The position numbers and the translations under genes were made by a program. A stretch of DNA of 64,000 bases from Methanoculleus frigidifontis. GTDB lineage: Archaea > Halobacteriota > Methanomicrobia > Methanomicrobiales > Methanoculleaceae. The stretch is from positions 248,001 to 312,000 of the forward strand of contig NZ_VCYH01000002.1 in assembly GCF_030464345.1 (NCBI RefSeq), in the 5' to 3' direction. A model generated the notes under the pieces. That model worked only from the letters and a program-made list of their open reading frames with translations. It had not been told where the DNA came from and ran no database searches. Of the stretch, positions 9,394 to 19,915 are shown piece after piece (the stretch's first letter is position 1; every line of letters begins with the position of its first letter).

Positions 9394-11163
9394 TCAGCGG
9401 GCTTTGCCCCGCCCCCGGTGCATCGCGGCGACCTCTGCGGCGGTCGTCGCCTGCTCCGGATCTTTCTCTCTCCTCCAGCGGACGAACCGCGGGAACCGCA
9501 GGGCAAGCCCCCGCTGCCGCCCGGCATCCCAGCTGCAGGTGTGCACCGGGCTTTCGGTGATCTCTGATCCCAGCACCTCGAGCACGTACCGGGGCACGAA
9601 CCAGACGTCCGGGCGCGCCTGATCGGTGGCCATGACCCGTGCCGGCATGCTCCCGGCCTGCGCATCCCCGAACATCTCCGGGAGCGCCCGGAGTTCTTCG
9701 TCCGTAAACCCGGTGCCGAGCTTGCAGACGGTCTGGAAGATATCCTCCTCGTGGTTGTATGCGGCGCAGAGGAGTGATCCGTAGGTGCCGGCCCGCTTTC
9801 CCCTGCCGGCGTTGGCGCCGACGACCACGAGGTCGAGGGTGTCGGCAAGGCCCGGGCCGTAACTCTTCTTCCATTTTATCCACTGCCACTCCCGGCCGCC
9901 GGCACGGTAGGAGGAGCCTGATGCCGTCGACTTGCAGACGATTCCTTCGAGGCCGCGCCCGATACAGGCCTCGAAGAAGTCCGCGACCACGGCAGGGTCG
10001 GTCGTGACGACCCGGCCCGACGCGGCGATGAACGCCCCGGGGCGGAGGAGCGCCTCGAGGATGCGCCGCCGCTCCGGGTACGGTGCCGCAAGATGCGGCG
10101 CCCCGTCCGCCAGGAGCACGTCGAAGACCCGGTAGGTCGCCGGGATCCGCTCTGCAAACTCGGCGATCCGGTACTTCCGGCGCCGCCGCATCAGCCGCTG
10201 GAAGGGGTGGTACGACCCGGTCTCCGGGTCGTAGGCGACGGCCTCACCGTCGAGGATGCACGAGTCCGCGGCGATATGCGTCCTGACAAGATCGACAATA
10301 TCCGGGAACTGGCCCGTGACGTCGGTCAGCCGCCGCGAAAACAGCCTGACCTCCTCGCCGTCCTTGTGCGCCTGTATCCGCTCGCCGTCGTACTTCTCCT
10401 CTGCAGCAACGACTGCAGAACCGATCTTTTCGAAGATCTCGCCGAACCGGGAGACCCGCTGGGTGAGCATCGGCCGGACCGGCCGAAAGAGCGTGATCCC
10501 GATCCGCTCCACGGCCCCAGGCCCGCCCGCTGCGAGGGTGGCCGCCACGTAGCCGATGTCGGAGCAGAGGTTATAGGCGTGTTCGAGCAGCGGCCGCCGC
10601 TTCTTCGAGCCGAGAAACGCCGTTGCGAGCGCGTCCAGGAGCGTCATATCGCCGACGCCGAGCCGCATGGTGCCGGTCGCCAGCCGCAGAAGATACCGCC
10701 GCTCCGCCGCCGCGGCCCCGGCGATCATCGCGGCGAGGATCTCTCGCCGGACGTCTTCGGAGCCTGGCCCGGCGGCGACGGCGACCCGCAGCAGACCGCG
10801 GTGCACGTCATCGACCGTCAGGGCATCGCCGAAGGTGAAGACCCCGGGAAAGATGCGCGTCTCTGCCCCGCCGAGCGCCGCCGCCGCGTCGCCGGCATCA
10901 CCGGCGGAGCGCACCGCCGCATCGACCATCTCCTGCGGAAGACCAAAAGCAGAGGCGATGGCGGCGCTTGCGGTCCTGACGCCGACACCGAGCGTGATCT
11001 CCCGGTAGCCGGCGGCGATCTCGCCGAGCGTGATATAGCAGAGCGTAGCGAGCTCGTCCGGCTCTGCTTCGCGCAGGAGATCGGCAAGAATGGCCGTCAT
11101 CTCGCGTGAAGAGGCCGTCTCTTCGAGCCGCTCGAATGCGCGGACCAGGCGGGAGAACTGCAT
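9394..11163 (-). CDS. lig: ATP-dependent DNA ligase
   Basis: This 589-residue enzyme seals nicks in replication and repair through an AMP-lysine intermediate. The nucleotidyl motif is EEKYDGERIQAH with Lys257. An N-terminal alpha-helical DNA-binding domain precedes it (LGVGDMTLLDALATAF is typical of archaeal/eukaryal ligase I). Later motifs include DGEAVAYD, GLEGIVCKS and the WQWIKWKKSY motif before the OB domain. Length fits archaeal LigA. The ATG at 11163 gives the standard MQFSRLVRAFERLE start; no strong ribosome binding site is close, so the transcript may be nearly leaderless. Confidence 0.96.
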   Translation of the reverse strand: MQFSRLVRAFERLEETASSREMTAILADLLREAEPDELATLCYITLGEIAAGYREITLGVGVRTASAAIASAFGLPQEMVDAAVRSAGDAGDAAAALGGAETRIFPGVFTFGDALTVDDVHRGLLRVAVAAGPGSEDVRREILAAMIAGAAAAERRYLLRLATGTMRLGVGDMTLLDALATAFLGSKKRRPLLEHAYNLCSDIGYVAATLAAGGPGAVERIGITLFRPVRPMLTQRVSRFGEIFEKIGSAVVAAEEKYDGERIQAHKDGEEVRLFSRRLTDVTGQFPDIVDLVRTHIAADSCILDGEAVAYDPETGSYHPFQRLMRRRRKYRIAEFAERIPATYRVFDVLLADGAPHLAAPYPERRRILEALLRPGAFIAASGRVVTTDPAVVADFFEACIGRGLEGIVCKSTASGSSYRAGGREWQWIKWKKSYGPGLADTLDLVVVGANAGRGKRAGTYGSLLCAAYNHEEDIFQTVCKLGTGFTDEELRALPEMFGDAQAGSMPARVMATDQARPDVWFVPRYVLEVLGSEITESPVHTCSWDAGRQRGLALRFPRFVRWRREKDPEQATTAAEVAAMHRGRGKAR

Positions 11164-11255: not shown

Positions 11256-13640
11256 ATGTATAAAAATGTGCGAATACTAGGAGTGCTCGTTCTTCTGGCG
11301 CTGTTCATCCCGATGGCTGGGTGTGCGCAGGAGAACGCCACCGGGAATGCCACAGAGGCAGTTCCACCGGAAGTGATCGAGTACGCGACCGACTGGCCGC
11401 TGCCGAACTACGACTACAACAACTCGCGTGCAACGATGGACTCGGCGATCGATGCCGATACCGTCAACGACCTCGGCACCGCATGGACGTTCGCCATTCC
11501 TGCCACCGGCACGTTCGGCGCAGCGTCCAGCAACCCGATCGTCATGGGCGAGACCGTCTACTTCCAGGACCTCAACGCGAGCGTCTTTGCCCTCGACCTC
11601 GGGAACGGTTCGGTGATCTGGGAGCAGCCCTACGACAACGCCTCGGTTGCCGGACCGAACGGGCCTGCGGTGGGCTGGGGCAAGGTCTTCGTGGCAAAGG
11701 ATCCCTTCAGCATGGCAGCCCTGAACGCGACGACCGGTGAAGAGATCTGGGCGCAGAAACTTGTCCTGAAGACCAACGAGACCGGAACGCTCATCGGTGA
11801 GGGGATCGACATCCAGCCGTCGGTCTACGACGGCCTCGTGCTCACCTCGACGGTGCCCGGAACCGGCGACGTCTTCTACGAGCCGGGGAGCATCGGCGTG
11901 ATCTACGCGCTCGACCAGGAGACCGGCGAGGTCGCCTGGAACTTCAGTACCGTCGATTCTCCGGACCTCTGGGGCAACCCCGACGTGAACAGCGGCGGCG
12001 GGTGCTGGTACTCGCCCGCCGTCGATACTGAGCGCAGCGTCACCTACTGGGGCGTCGGCAACCCCGCGCCCTGGCCGGGCACCGAGGAGTGGCCGAACGG
12101 AACGAGCCGTCCGGGCCCGAACCTCTACACAAACAGCATCCTCGCCCTGGGAGCGGAGAACGGCAGCCTGAACTGGTATACCCAGACGGTGCCGCACGAC
12201 CTCTTCGACTACGACCTGCAGATCCCGCCGATCCTGACGAACGCCAGCGTCGCCGGTGAGGAGCAGGACCTCGTCATCGGTGCGGGCAAGATGGGCAGGG
12301 TCTACGCCTTCAACCGCGACAGCGGCAGCCTCCTCTGGGTTGCGGTCGTCGGGGAGCACCAGAACGACCAGATCGCCGGCATCCCGCCGAACGAGACCGT
12401 GACGGTCTATCCGGGATACTTCGGCGGCGTCGAGACGCCGATGGCCTATGCCGACGGCGTCGTCTTCGTGCCGAGCCTCGATCTCTTTGCGAACTACACG
12501 TCCACGCAGGTGGGCGGCCAGGAGCCGTTCAACGAGTCGGTCGGCAGGCTGACGGCCATCGAGGTTGAGACCGGCAAGATCCTCTGGGACAAGGAGCTCG
12601 CGTCCCCGAACTTCGGCGGCGCGACGGTGGTGAACGATCTGGTCTTCACGGCGACGTTCGACGGCACGATCCTCGCCTGCGACCGTGCGACCGGTGATGA
12701 GGTCTGGAACATGACCGCACCGGCCGGGATCAACGCCTGGCCGGCCGTGGCGAACGACACCATCGTCTGGCCTGCCGGTGCCGGCGACGAGCCGGTGCTG
12801 CTCGCCCTCCGGCTCGGTGCGGCGGGCGGGAACGTCACGATGCCGCAGAACGTGACCGGGAACCAGACGGCGAATCAGACGCAGAACATGACTCAGAACC
12901 AGACGATGAATCAGACCGCGGGCATGGACAACATGACAATGAATCAGACGACGGGCAACGTGACCGGGATGCCGAACGTGACGATTACGATGCCTGAGAA
13001 CGGGTCGGGCGTGAGTGCCGGGAACGTGACGGTCGCGATCGAGGTCGCGAACTTCAGCCTCGTCGACAGCCTGGGACAATCGGCCGTGACCGGTGAAGGC
13101 CACGTCCACTACTACATGGACGTCGAGCCGCTCCCGACACAGCAGGGCAGCCCTGCGGTGCCGGAGAACGGCTCGTATGCCGTGAGCACCAACACGTCCT
13201 ATACGTGGGAGAACGTCACGGCCGGCAACCACACCTTTGCAGTCCAGCTCGTCAACAACGACCACACGCCCCTCGACCCGCCGGTGACCGCGGCCGTCAA
13301 CGTCACCGCAAACCAGACCGCCGAGAACGTGACGGAGAACCAGACGATGCAGGAGAACGTGACAGTCGGCCTTACGGCAGAGAACATCGCCTTCAACACG
13401 AGCACCATCACGGTTCCTGCCGGAGCGGCCGTGACGATGGACTTCACCAACCTGGACAACGTGCCGCATAACTTCGCGGCCTACGAGACGGCGGAGGCGA
13501 GCGATGCCATCTTCGTCGGCGAGGTCATCGGCCAGGGAGAGATCACCTACACCTTCACGGCGCCGGAGACGCCGGGCACCTATTTCTTCCGCTGCGACGT
13601 CCACCCGGTGGCAATGACCGGCGACTTCATTGTGGAGTGA
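11256..13640 (+). CDS. Secreted PQQ-dehydrogenase-like beta-propeller fused to a blue-copper domain
   Basis: This 794-residue lipoprotein (lipobox ...IPMAGC near residue 23) starts with a propeller (about 35-525) that resembles PQQ-dependent methanol/alcohol dehydrogenases. Aligned by eye to MxaF/XoxF it keeps a Glu (E209 in YEPGSIG), Asn (N269 in GNPAPW) and the catalytic-type Asp (D318 in HDLFDYD). Asp320 lies two residues on, the position that marks lanthanide-type enzymes. The vicinal Cys pair of MxaF appears absent. An NxT-rich linker follows, then a domain with HVHYYMDVEPLP, then a C-terminal cupredoxin with ligands His738, Cys780, His783 and Met787. It may pass electrons from the propeller to copper outside the cell. 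Activity is unproven; it could be a non-enzymatic propeller. Confidence 0.75.
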   Translation: MYKNVRILGVLVLLALFIPMAGCAQENATGNATEAVPPEVIEYATDWPLPNYDYNNSRATMDSAIDADTVNDLGTAWTFAIPATGTFGAASSNPIVMGETVYFQDLNASVFALDLGNGSVIWEQPYDNASVAGPNGPAVGWGKVFVAKDPFSMAALNATTGEEIWAQKLVLKTNETGTLIGEGIDIQPSVYDGLVLTSTVPGTGDVFYEPGSIGVIYALDQETGEVAWNFSTVDSPDLWGNPDVNSGGGCWYSPAVDTERSVTYWGVGNPAPWPGTEEWPNGTSRPGPNLYTNSILALGAENGSLNWYTQTVPHDLFDYDLQIPPILTNASVAGEEQDLVIGAGKMGRVYAFNRDSGSLLWVAVVGEHQNDQIAGIPPNETVTVYPGYFGGVETPMAYADGVVFVPSLDLFANYTSTQVGGQEPFNESVGRLTAIEVETGKILWDKELASPNFGGATVVNDLVFTATFDGTILACDRATGDEVWNMTAPAGINAWPAVANDTIVWPAGAGDEPVLLALRLGAAGGNVTMPQNVTGNQTANQTQNMTQNQTMNQTAGMDNMTMNQTTGNVTGMPNVTITMPENGSGVSAGNVTVAIEVANFSLVDSLGQSAVTGEGHVHYYMDVEPLPTQQGSPAVPENGSYAVSTNTSYTWENVTAGNHTFAVQLVNNDHTPLDPPVTAAVNVTANQTAENVTENQTMQENVTVGLTAENIAFNTSTITVPAGAAVTMDFTNLDNVPHNFAAYETAEASDAIFVGEVIGQGEITYTFTAPETPGTYFFRCDVHPVAMTGDFIVE

Positions 13641-15089: not shown

Positions 15090-15887
15090 ATGCACGAGGA
15101 CGAAGCAGGGGAAACCATCATTCTCCCGGACGAAGTGGATTCATTCAGGGAACTCTCGGAGTACCTGGACGTGCTCTCGAGCAGCACGCGGCTGAGGATC
15201 CTCAAGATCATCGAGAGAAAACCAAAAGACATCAGGCAGATATCCTCGGAGATCCGGACGAGTTACGAGAACACCAAGAAGCATATCGACAAACTGCTCA
15301 GTATCGGGGTCGTCCGCAAAGAGGCGGGGCTCTCGCGGCCGACGTCAAAAGGCATTCACCCGGTCTGGAAGTACTCGCTCGTCCCGGGAGGGATGGAAGC
15401 AATCGTCCGGAACCTCGGGCTCTTCTCCAATATGCGGCTGGCATCCGCGGACGCCGATCTCAGCGCACGGCTTGCGGCGGTGCGGGGGCAGGTCGCGGAG
15501 GAGTTTTCGGGCGGCGTGCCGGCGGTCACCCTCCTCGGCGGACCGGATGACGGGACGGTCTTCCCGCTCGAGGGAGAGCGCATCGCCGTGGGGCGGGGCG
15601 ACCGGGACGCCGCAGGAGACCTGTCCGCAATCCTCCTCTCCGAGGAGTACGCCGCCGTGACCCGCGTTTCGAAACCGCACGCACGGTTTACGCTGCAGAG
15701 CGGGGTCTGGCATATCGAGGACTGCGGGAGCACCGGCGGCACCTTCGTCAACGGTGCGGCTCTTGCGCCGCACCACAGGCAGCCCCTGCAGGACGGCGAC
15801 CTCATCGACCTTGCCCGGGGCGTTCACGGGGCGTCCTTCGTCTACACCGAGCGGGGCCGCTCGGAGCGGGAGGAGGAAGAGCCCTGA
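15090..15887 (+). CDS. Winged-helix transcription regulator with C-terminal FHA domain
   Basis: This 265-residue protein has an ArsR-like winged helix at about 20-105 (LSSSTRLRILKIIERKPKDI, then YENTKKHIDKLLSIGVVRKE). A linker and an FHA domain follow at about 150-255. The FHA core shows GERIAVGRGDRD, VSKPHARF and STGGTFVNG, the loops that bind phosphothreonine. GGGGAG 5 nt before the ATG is the ribosome binding site. Its stop overlaps the proposed start of the kinase gene, so a plausible circuit is that the kinase phosphorylates a partner or this protein and the FHA domain reads it out as transcription control. The circuit is inference; the domains are clear. Confidence 0.85.
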   Translation: MHEDEAGETIILPDEVDSFRELSEYLDVLSSSTRLRILKIIERKPKDIRQISSEIRTSYENTKKHIDKLLSIGVVRKEAGLSRPTSKGIHPVWKYSLVPGGMEAIVRNLGLFSNMRLASADADLSARLAAVRGQVAEEFSGGVPAVTLLGGPDDGTVFPLEGERIAVGRGDRDAAGDLSAILLSEEYAAVTRVSKPHARFTLQSGVWHIEDCGSTGGTFVNGAALAPHHRQPLQDGDLIDLARGVHGASFVYTERGRSEREEEEP

Positions 15888-17587
15888 CCGCATCTGCCGC
15901 GGCGGGGCGGCGGCTGATCGTCCTGCTCCTCTGCATCGCCCTCGCCGCCGCGGTATCGCCGGCGTTTGCGGCGACCTACACCGTCGGCACCGGTGAAGGC
16001 GACCTTCCGACGATCCAGAGCGCCGTCGACCTCGCGGCGGACGGCGATACGGTGATCGTGCAGGGCGGCACCTCCAGAGAGTCCGTCACCGTGCCGCGCT
16101 CCATCACCCTCCGGGGAACGGACGGGGCGGTGCTGATCGCTCCGGACAATTCTGCTGCGCTCCGTCTTGCGGCCGACGGCGTCCTGGTGGAAGGGTTCTC
16201 GATCCTGGCCGCGTCCGGAAACGGCATCGAGGTCGCCGGCGACCGCAGCACGATCCGGGAGAACCGCATCGACGGCGCGGAGATCGGCATCCTCTGCACG
16301 GCGGGCCGTAAGAACGAGATAACCGGAAACACCATCAGCAACGCTACCGTTGCGGCGATCGTCCTGCAGGACCCGGGCAGCAACACCATCACCGCCAACA
16401 CGTTTGCGGGCAACCTGCAGGACGTCCTCAGCGAGGGGCGCTCGAACGGCAACCAGATCAGCGGCAACGCGGAAGAGTCGCTGCCGGCCGCAGCAGCGCG
16501 CGCCGCTGCACAGGGGCGAAACCCGGAGAACTCCCGGGCACCGGCAGTAACGGCAGCGACGACAGCGGCGGCGACAACCGGATCGCCGGCCGCTCCCGCC
16601 GGCAGGGGCGACAGCGGCGGCGGCAGGATGAACCCGCTCCTCACAGCAGCCCTCCTGCTCGCGGCGGCCGCTCTCCTGGCAGGGGTCGCGTTCGCGTGGC
16701 ACCGCCGCACGCAGGAGAGACGCGAATCCGGGGATCCTGCCGGAACTCTCCGCTCCCCCGCCGCCACCCTCCCGGCAGCCCGCGCCTTCGGGTTCCCGGG
16801 CGAACTGCAGGACAGGTACGACCGGATCGAGTACGTCGGGGAAGGCGGCCTCGGCCGGGTCTTTGGCGCGGTGCGGCGGAGCGACGGGCAGGCCGTCGCC
16901 GTGAAGATCCCAATCGCCTTCGACGAAGCGACCGGCCGGGCGTTTTTGAAGGAGATGCAGCTCTGGGAGGAACTCAGGCACCCGAATATCGTGACCGTCT
17001 ACTCGGTCAACATCCTCCCGGTCCCCTACGTCGAGATGGAGTACGTCCCCCGAACGCTCGAGCAGCTCGAGAAACCCGTAGCGATCGGGACGGCCGTCCG
17101 GCTCGTCGCCGGCATTGCCGACGGGCTCGGATACGCCCACGCGTGCGGGGTGATTCACCGCGACATTAAGCCCCACAACATCCTCCTGACGGACGATCTG
17201 ACGCCGAAGATCACCGACTGGGGCATGGGCAAGGTTCTGCTCCGGGGCGCCGAGACGAGCGGGTCCGGGTTCTCCCCAACCTACGCGGCGCCCGAACAGC
17301 TGGCGCCGAAGCAGTACGGCTCGACCGGCCCCGGGACCGATCTCTACCAGCTCGGCGTCGTCCTCTACGAACTCCTGACCGGCGCCGCACCGTTCTCGGG
17401 CGAGAGCGTAGGGGAGATCAGCATGGCGATCCTCGGCGATGCGCCGGTCCCGCCGTCACAGGTCCGGCCGGGCACGGAGGCGCTCGACAGCGTTGTTCTC
17501 CGGTGCCTGGAGAAGGACCCGGAGCGGCGCTACCGGTCGGCGGCGGACCTCCGGGCCGACCTGACCGGCGACGCGGCCTCGCCGTAA
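15884..17587 (+). CDS. Membrane Ser/Thr protein kinase with secreted beta-helix ectodomain (probable CTG start)
   Basis: The protein is 567 residues if started at CTG 15884. A signal peptide with LLLCIALAAAVSPAFA leads into a parallel beta-helix (about 40-190; GNGIEVAGDRSTIRENRID, NSITGN-type repeats) as in NosD-like proteins. A Ser/Ala/Thr-rich linker, one membrane helix (about 250-271) and a kinase domain (about 310-567) follow. Kinase motifs are GEGGLGRV, VAVKI, HRDIKPHN, DWG in place of DFG, and APE. No ATG, GTG or TTG exists between the last upstream stop-free region and the signal peptide. GGAGGAGG lies 8 nt before the CTG, which overlaps the preceding TGA. A GTG at 16052 would remove the signal peptide. 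The ectodomain may sense a surface polymer. Confidence 0.8.
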   Translation: MTASAAAGRRLIVLLLCIALAAAVSPAFAATYTVGTGEGDLPTIQSAVDLAADGDTVIVQGGTSRESVTVPRSITLRGTDGAVLIAPDNSAALRLAADGVLVEGFSILAASGNGIEVAGDRSTIRENRIDGAEIGILCTAGRKNEITGNTISNATVAAIVLQDPGSNTITANTFAGNLQDVLSEGRSNGNQISGNAEESLPAAAARAAAQGRNPENSRAPAVTAATTAAATTGSPAAPAGRGDSGGGRMNPLLTAALLLAAAALLAGVAFAWHRRTQERRESGDPAGTLRSPAATLPAARAFGFPGELQDRYDRIEYVGEGGLGRVFGAVRRSDGQAVAVKIPIAFDEATGRAFLKEMQLWEELRHPNIVTVYSVNILPVPYVEMEYVPRTLEQLEKPVAIGTAVRLVAGIADGLGYAHACGVIHRDIKPHNILLTDDLTPKITDWGMGKVLLRGAETSGSGFSPTYAAPEQLAPKQYGSTGPGTDLYQLGVVLYELLTGAAPFSGESVGEISMAILGDAPVPPSQVRPGTEALDSVVLRCLEKDPERRYRSAADLRADLTGDAASP

Positions 17588-19249: not shown

Positions 19250-19915
19250 ATGGTTACCATCACCGAAGTCTACAACAATATCGAGTACAACCCGACCCTG
19301 ATCCCGGAGAAGGGGTTCTCCTGCTCCCTGCAGGAGGCGGACCTGCTCTTTGATACCGGCGGGCGGGGGGACGTGCTGCTCACCAACATGGAGCGGCTCG
19401 GCATCGACCCTGCGGGAGTCCGGCGCCTCGTGGTCTCCCACGACCACTGGGACCACACCGGCGGGATCGCCGCATTCCTCGCGGCAGACCCCGGCGCGGA
19501 CGTCTTCATCCCCGAAGGCTTTTCGCAGAAGACAGTGGATTTGATCGAAGAGTACACGACGCCGCAGGTCGTCACGGGATGGACGCGAATTTCGGACGGC
19601 ATCTTCTCGACCGGGCCGCTCGGGGACGCGATCCGCGAGCAGTCCCTCGCCGTTGCAACGCCGAACGGGTTTTTGATCGTGACGGGCTGCGCACACCCGC
19701 ACGCCGGCAGGATCATCGAGCGGGTCCGGGAGGAAGGACCGGTCTGGGGCATCCTCGGCGGGTTGCACACCGTATCGGAGGCGGATATGGACGCCCTCGG
19801 GAGCGTCGCGTACCTCTCGGCGTCCCACTGCACCGACCGCATCGACGACCTGCAGCAGCGCTACCCGGCGGCGTTCCGGCCGGGCGGCGTCGGCAGGATC
19901 CACCGGATGCCGTGA
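19250..19915 (+). CDS. Metallo-beta-lactamase-fold hydrolase
   Basis: This 221-residue cytoplasmic metal hydrolase has the HxHxDH zinc motif as SHDHWDH, then TGCAHPHAG and a GGLH segment that supply later ligands. The layout (MVTITEVYNNIEYNP, LLFDTGGRGDVLLTN) resembles the archaeal subgroup annotated as dihydropterin methyltransferase-like (beta-ribofuranosylaminobenzene 5'-phosphate-related) MBL proteins. The substrate cannot be named. An in-frame GTG 9 nt earlier is possible, but the TATA spacing favours this ATG. Confidence 0.82.
   Translation: MVTITEVYNNIEYNPTLIPEKGFSCSLQEADLLFDTGGRGDVLLTNMERLGIDPAGVRRLVVSHDHWDHTGGIAAFLAADPGADVFIPEGFSQKTVDLIEEYTTPQVVTGWTRISDGIFSTGPLGDAIREQSLAVATPNGFLIVTGCAHPHAGRIIERVREEGPVWGILGGLHTVSEADMDALGSVAYLSASHCTDRIDDLQQRYPAAFRPGGVGRIHRMP

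Follow-up and report, generated by a model that had tools for sequence, protein, structure and literature searches.

A quinoprotein-like propeller fused to a cupredoxin in the methanogen Methanoculleus frigidifontis, a candidate extracellular redox protein

Analysis of a 64,000-nucleotide stretch of the genome of Methanoculleus frigidifontis (contig NZ_VCYH01000002.1, positions 248,001 to 312,000; here called the window) revealed a gene for a predicted secreted protein that combines an eight-bladed propeller of the pyrroloquinoline quinone (PQQ)-dependent alcohol dehydrogenase (ADH) type with a DUF4399-like domain and a C-terminal cupredoxin. This arrangement is confirmed as real and beyond chance. 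As its family keeps half of the usual cofactor pocket, the protein is probably redox active and not a lanthanide enzyme of a known type, as which it had been described in a first-pass annotation. We tentatively favor a remodeled, quinoprotein-like extracellular redox propeller, which would trade electrons with its own copper site and may use scavenged PQQ or another cofactor.

The AlphaFold2 (AF2) model of the protein was built from 42 sequences and has a mean predicted local distance difference test (pLDDT) score of 83.6. Foldseek returned three quinohemoprotein ADHs (1yiq, 1kb0, and 1kv9) as top matches, and in VIA-align the model superposes on XoxF 6dam (Z 41.0, root mean square deviation [rmsd] 2.3 Å over 464 residues) and on 1yiq (Z 41.0 over 475 residues), which upholds the first-pass annotation as a PQQ dehydrogenase-like propeller. 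Z values to the listed PQQ dehydrogenases ranged from 36.3 to 41.0; BamB aligned with a Z of 34.8 over 331 residues. The family profile scored 1kb0 (168.6 bits) and 1kv9 (164.3 bits) highest and PedH at 155.8 bits, versus 84.7 bits for the best BamB chain. The NCBIfam model of PQQ methanol/ethanol dehydrogenases, TIGR03075, matched with 181.7 bits (E = 2.2e-53), short of the curated cut-off of 480.05; the propeller fold, the catalytic Asp, and the metal-binding Asn of that group are present, while the metal Glu as a family trait, the Cys-Cys pair, and the PQQ-binding Arg are not. A tree was calculated by a quick method from 67 of 92 rows, after removal of 23 rows judged redundant by eye and of the divergent L021 and L022 (loci are denoted by L numbers), with GCD and L108 as long rows. 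In this tree, a branch of length 2.78 separates the family from the PQQ-ADH-like rows, with 100% support in the Shimodaira-Hasegawa-like approximate likelihood ratio test. The propeller family thus appears to descend from the PQQ alcohol dehydrogenase lineage and to form a separate, uncharacterized branch of it.

Residue conservation was counted in an alignment of the window protein, 18 relatives from genomes of the order Methanomicrobiales, and 72 of the 78 loci of a genome-wide scan, which comprised the best 80 of at least 526 confirmed relatives; L036, L076, L078, L082, L086, and L087 are broken or partial and were excluded from the counts. The 68 family rows reduce to 59 distinct members, and the outgroup consists of 23 rows, with L021 and L022 counted there. 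Asn269 and Asp320 are kept in all 59 members and Trp251, Asp315, Asp318, and Lys345 in 58 each. By their roles in known enzymes, we take Trp251 to mark the Trp under PQQ, Asn269 a metal ligand, and Lys345 a residue near PQQ. Six or more of seven PQQ-ADH-like sequences agree at 154 alignment columns; the family retains 54 of these at the 90% level, including Trp251, Asn269, Asp315, Asp318, and Asp320, and falls short of that level at the other 100. The pattern therefore indicates that one half of the pocket, the catalytic one, has been retained and that the other has been rebuilt.

The first-pass annotation had placed Glu209, Asn269, and Asp318 at the metal-PQQ and catalytic positions. For this one sequence the placement is reasonable: in phmmer alignments with solved enzymes Asn269 and Asp318/Asp320 fall on the PedH/XoxF motifs, gap-free nearby. 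Glu209 is the least certain of them, pairing with the EFG-motif Glu of 1yiq but falling in a gap against 1kb0, and across the family its placement does not hold. As MAFFT set the outgroup Glu at column 203 and not 209, this position was scored by its offset, as the fifth residue ahead of the conserved Gly214. Glu was then found in 2 of the 59 distinct members (the window protein and L069) versus 20 of the 23 outgroup rows, with Ala (17), Arg (10), Gln (9), Lys (6), and other residues in its place. The closest relative, L005 (84% identical), has Gln, one base away (CAG versus GAG), and the loop with Glu209 (residues 201 to 210) is poorly predicted, with a mean pLDDT of 63. The fold match and the alignment together suggest that the four residues (Glu209, Asn269, Asp318, and Asp320) may converge in space. 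Asp205 was also considered as the true metal ligand, equivalent to Asp354 of Escherichia coli GCD, a metal ligand in that enzyme. This candidate was rejected: the equivalence appears in an ungapped by-eye reading only, MAFFT leaves a gap, and the residue is not invariant.

The C-terminal domain was recognized by two cupredoxin models over their Pfam cut-offs, PF13473 (1.3e-10) and PF00127 (9e-08), alongside PF01011 (2.8e-43) for the propeller, and its matches in the PDB include the electron carriers auracyanin and plastocyanin and also amicyanin. All four ligands (His-Cys-His-Met) are present, as the first-pass annotation of a fused blue-copper domain had stated, and by domain and ligands the cupredoxin is a predicted type-1 copper protein. 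Modeling of the C-terminal part alone gave a pLDDT of 76.5, and the Foldseek matches listed for it are two-domain laccases with an rmsd of 16 to 19 Å and a template modeling score of about 0.34; no conclusion is drawn from these matches. Pfam was also run on 32 other family tails, picked for length from members that continue beyond the propeller and including two near duplicates (L032 of L007 and L079 of L014). Cupredoxin exceeded the cut-off in 19 of them (from methanogens, another Euryarchaeota record, Chloroflexi, and a bacterium of the candidate phyla radiation [CPR]), DOMON in four from the Methanothrix group (L038, L041, L043, and L044), sulfocyanin SoxE in one (L064), and cytochrome c in one (L055, with a CASCH motif). 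Within the order, 12 of 17 members, including the window protein, carry a cupredoxin. The tree implies at least six changes of the cupredoxin state and at least seven between one-electron carrier and none (gains and losses together). Because the propeller is repeatedly paired with electron carriers, we infer that it does redox chemistry itself, and this is our main argument.

The first-pass annotation had assumed a host without known PQQ synthesis, and a search of the window's genome agreed, as no synthesis gene exceeded its family cut-off. PqqC gave no match there (nor did it in the control genomes), PqqD gave none (the control was positive in three), PqqB gave one sub-cut-off match, and PqqE gave sub-cut-off matches of the radical-SAM type only. 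None of the 199 genomes searched in the order had PqqC over the cut-off. Of the genomes with family members, 3 of 38 did (two more were sub-cut-off), and so did 3 of 8 genomes with outgroup sequences (plus one partial sub-cut-off match); since many of these are metagenome-assembled genomes (MAGs), single absences of PqqC weigh little. With no synthesis gene over the cut-off, PQQ, if used, would therefore be scavenged. Three sequences from Poribacteria (L091, L092, and L093) have complete-looking PQQ-ADH motifs (CC, NRG, SGAE, and DWD), yet PqqC was found in none of the three genomes.

In layout, the window protein resembles the type II quinohemoprotein ADHs (1kb0, 1kv9, and 1yiq), which share the eight-bladed propeller and the Trp, Asn, Asp, and Lys positions and have a fused one-electron carrier at the C terminus as well. 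The carrier is cytochrome c in these enzymes, as in family member L055, but a cupredoxin in the window protein, and the family differs further in having neither the vicinal cysteines nor the PQQ arginine, with the metal Glu being no family trait; the protein lacks several of the tested features of PQQ methanol/ethanol dehydrogenases. XoxF and PedH (6dam and 6zcw) have the same propeller fold and the Asn and Asp-x-Asp positions, but in the window's family the metal Glu is rare and the PQQ grip is lost; XoxF is not known to have a fused carrier. E. coli GCD shares the Asp-x-Asp, Trp404, and Lys493 positions, but has Val422 in the Asn269 column (MAFFT) and no fusion. GCD is anchored by N-terminal helices, and E. 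coli, which is not known to synthesize PQQ, can use scavenged PQQ. The HMT thaumarchaeal quinoproteins, compared here by description only, are according to PMC7300363 likewise archaeal, PQQ-ADH-like, and without Cys-Cys; some have DYD or DXD, and blue copper acceptors were suggested for them. Unlike in our search of the window's genome, a PQQ synthase is reported there for their genomes.

If the tentatively favored redox propeller is real, the protein would be extracellular, with attachment to the envelope probable. Its propeller would have kept the catalytic half (Trp, Asn, Asp, Asp+2, and Lys) and replaced the PQQ-gripping parts of the alcohol dehydrogenases, and its center may hold a redox cofactor or a substrate, either scavenged PQQ in an altered grip or another quinone-like or metal-bound molecule. 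Single electrons would pass between the propeller and the type-1 copper in the cupredoxin, in one direction or the other, and the cupredoxin may in turn exchange them with an external partner. In the type II quinohemoprotein ADHs, the cytochrome c domain takes electrons one at a time.

Several points weigh against such a redox propeller. The residues that hold PQQ are largely missing: the vicinal Cys-Cys columns are gaps in all 59 members, the PQQ arginine position holds Asn in 54 and never Arg, and Ser or Thr occupies the Glu55-like position, that of a Glu close to the cofactor, in 58. The designed propeller Cake8 aligns with a Z of 38.4 over 314 residues, so that Z alone cannot tell enzymes from other propellers and the longer alignment carries more weight. 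In seven of the 32 tails, Pfam gave no redox module above the cut-off: no Pfam domain was found in L047, DUF4399 in L049 and L019, fasciclin plus DUF4399 in L015, a sub-cut-off cupredoxin in L053, and sub-cut-off PSCyt1 without CxxCH in L075 and L077, for which reason L075 was not scored as a carrier. Half of the members counted on the tree, 27 of 54 (L017, L083, and L053 are excluded from the state counts), were assigned no additional domain at the C terminus, so the family can do without a fused carrier. The counts of state changes on the tree were made without a shuffled-label control. DOMON may bind sugar instead of heme. Frames flanking 55 loci of the genome-wide scan and the window's gene, within at most 8 kb and in many cases less, were grouped by blastp; no conserved neighbor or operon partner for electron transfer was among the clusters listed. 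Finally, for no family member did we find data on activity, cofactor, or metal.

We consider it somewhat unlikely that the propeller serves an envelope protein as a binding or scaffold domain without any cofactor (an "empty quinoprotein"), with a cupredoxin that only binds or buffers copper. Loss of the PQQ-gripping residues and the lack of a PQQ synthesis gene over the cut-off would fit such a scaffold, and so would the mosaic nature of this surface protein, whose linker and DUF4399-like domain are 93% identical to part of a fasciclin-bearing protein of the same genome, and the variable C-terminal modules of its relatives, which include none or fasciclin. The NCBIfam group TIGR04528 (acido-empty-quinoprotein group A, short name acido_non_PQQ) also comprises PQQ-ADH-like propellers, but the window protein is not a member, as it scores 157.3 bits against a cut-off of 650. 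The persistence of six catalytic-half residues in 58 to 59 of 59 members across wide taxa is unexpected for a mere scaffold, and the fusions to cytochrome c and sulfocyanin likewise speak for redox chemistry.

The hydrogenotrophic methanogens of this order are generally regarded as free of cytochromes, and for methanogens without them no route from the surface to the cytoplasm is known. This argues against a further and improbable explanation, in which the protein takes up or releases electrons for direct interspecies transfer or for exchange with humics, a role suggested for the "surface quinoproteins" that Methanothrix and Methanosarcina have. The family does occur in Methanothrix, with a DOMON tail in four scanned members, and PMC10470525 proposes a surface quinoprotein, SqpA, and describes a surface PQQ protein and several copper-domain proteins expressed on the surface of Methanothrix thermoacetophila; PMC12072023 repeats the SqpA proposal. 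PMC10470525 itself terms this analysis speculative, however, and SqpA and the M. acetivorans proteins are at most putative members of the family. PMC11921357 reports PQQ genes as weakly expressed and downregulated, PMC10945356 disputes the humic-acid work, and both PMC10945356 and PMC10960953 present extracellular electron exchange of methanogens as disputed. Among the titles listed in searches of the open-licence PMC literature, none describes a fusion of a PQQ-type propeller and a cupredoxin in methanogens; PMC4982221, the single match for Methanoculleus with a cupredoxin, names it in one table row about multicopper oxidases and nowhere else. A conserved secreted propeller with a putative built-in copper relay would be a concrete, testable candidate for extracellular electron exchange in methanogens.

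The first-pass annotation had proposed an alcohol dehydrogenase of the XoxF/ExaF kind that depends on a lanthanide and PQQ and carries its own copper acceptor, and had regarded Asp320 (DYD) as diagnostic of lanthanide enzymes. Glu209, Asn269, Asp318, and Asp320 are indeed all present in the window protein, and its fold matches that of XoxF. GCD of E. coli MG1655, however, has Asp466-Met-Asp468 aligned with Asp318/Asp320, and the second Asp (Asp+2) occurs in all 59 family members and all 23 outgroup rows. Since GCD and the whole outgroup share the pair, Asp+2 is not diagnostic outside the methanol/ethanol dehydrogenases; GCD works with Mg or Ca. Given the rare Glu209, the unspecific Asp+2, the absent vicinal Cys, the replacement of the PQQ Arg by Asn and of the Glu55-like residue by Ser or Thr, the low TIGR03075 score, and the lack of PqqC over the cut-off throughout the order, a lanthanide enzyme is highly improbable. 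As a family trait, the lanthanide type was rejected because Glu209 is not conserved and Asp+2 is unspecific. More generally, Asp-x-Asp should not be read as a lanthanide mark outside the methanol/ethanol dehydrogenases, and the pocket should be checked before such proteins are named PQQ binding.

The family is recurrent but patchy in methanogens. Matches at E ≤ 1e-20 were found in 19 of the 199 genomes of the order and none in the other 180; 17 of the 19 are at least 50% identical (the window's own genome included) and two about 30%. The methanogen origin of the gene is sound because relatives of 50 to 84% identity exist in 16 other genomes of the order, including one single-contig genome. The first-pass annotation had called such a protein unexpected in a methanogen, which must be qualified: the family recurs among methanogens, if patchily, and surface PQQ proteins of methanogens are already discussed in print (PMC10470525). 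By record title, the family members among the best 80 of at least 526 relatives include Methanoculleus, Methanothrix, Chloroflexi, Collierbacteria, Daviesbacteria, Binatia, Acidobacteria, and Actinobacteria; almost all are MAGs. In a survey of 251 Chloroflexota genomes, the family was found in three at E ≤ 1e-70, all already among the loci of the genome-wide scan, and is therefore sparse there. Among plasmids, no record spanned 80% of the query, and the best was about 31% identical. It is conceivable, if doubtful, that these proteins form a separate redox-propeller family of methanogens, Chloroflexi, CPR, and other bacteria, with a pocket rebuilt for a cofactor other than self-made PQQ and with interchangeable carriers (cupredoxin, sulfocyanin, cytochrome c, and DOMON), which would provide cytochrome-free methanogens with copper-based extracellular electron transfer.

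Three CPR loci (L056, L058, and L087, by record title from Collierbacteria, Daviesbacteria, and Berkelbacteria) carry a full or partial family member, which is odd for such small genomes; L087 is partial and has a cupredoxin. A second propeller family exists in the order (L021 and L022, about 30% identical to that of the window). The Asn is retained in it, and Asp318/Asp320 are matched by the Asp-Trp-Asp of its HDWD motif; L021 also has a C-terminal cupredoxin over the Pfam cut-off.

The features of the gene are listed in Table 1.

Table 1. Features of the propeller-cupredoxin gene (positions in the window)
Feature	Position	Strand	Basis or remark
Whole gene	11256..13640	+	Open frame, 794 amino acids plus stop
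Export signal with lipobox-like MAGC (Cys23)	11256..11324	+	By eye
Eight-bladed PQQ-ADH-type propeller, residues 36-522	11361..12821	+	PF01011, AF2 model, VIA-align to 6dam
Asp205, acidic in 34/59 members (D 24, E 10)	11868..11870	+	Conservation count
Glu209, metal Glu of the first-pass annotation, not conserved	11880..11882	+	Glu in 2/59; GAG here, CAG in L005
Trp251, position of the Trp under PQQ	12006..12008	+	58/59 family, 23/23 outgroup
Asn269, position of the metal-ligand Asn	12060..12062	+	59/59 family, 23/23 outgroup
Asp318-Tyr-Asp320, catalytic Asp and Asp+2 positions	12207..12215	+	Asp318 58/59, Asp320 59/59
Lys345, position of Arg/Lys near PQQ	12288..12290	+	58/59 family; Lys493 in GCD
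Disordered linker, Thr/Asn/Gln-rich	12822..12971	+	pLDDT <50 at residues 533-570; composition of residues 521-572
Beta domain, DUF4399-like	12972..13313	+	PF14347 E 0.0026, below cut-off; block pLDDT 71-92 (residues 571-680)
Cupredoxin, ligands His738/Cys780/His783/Met787	13350..13637	+	PF13473 and PF00127; block pLDDT 89-96

An upstream in-frame GTG at 11106 would give 844 amino acids; in the closest relative, L005, its own ATG and hydrophobic start align with the ATG at 11256. The N termini of other relatives are hydrophobic as well, with Cys23 mostly absent. PF14347 exceeds its cut-off in the relative L014. A frame of 775 amino acids lies antisense to the gene and is taken as a shadow frame because the homologues sit on the plus strand.

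Two further loci of the same genome share modules with the protein. L002 (contig C1, near 19452-19907) encodes the protein that matches window residues 549-698 (linker plus DUF4399-like domain) at the 93% identity given above; this protein combines domains of the fasciclin, DUF7282, and DUF4430 types with long NQT-type repeats, and the sharing suggests module exchange among surface proteins. L003 (1498-2034, minus strand) encodes a stand-alone, lipoprotein-like cupredoxin of 178 amino acids that is 57% identical to the fused one.

One flank of the gene holds an Fe/Mn superoxide dismutase, a CoA ligase, an FKBP isomerase, and a DNA ligase, the other a frame of 180 amino acids that looks hydrophobic by eye and matches no Pfam model, together with an FHA protein and a kinase. 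In distant carriers of the family, none of these neighbors recurs among the clusters listed. Among the matches listed, the neighbor clusters present in at least three loci comprise the gene itself and overlapping shadow frames, ABC-transporter-like frames at scattered places in seven loci, and ligase-like frames in three; the listed clusters also reveal synteny among five Methanoculleus-like loci. Within the window, an FHA-domain protein (15090-15884, plus strand) lies beside a Ser/Thr kinase fused to a NosD-like beta-helix (16052-17584, plus strand), here in an archaeon.

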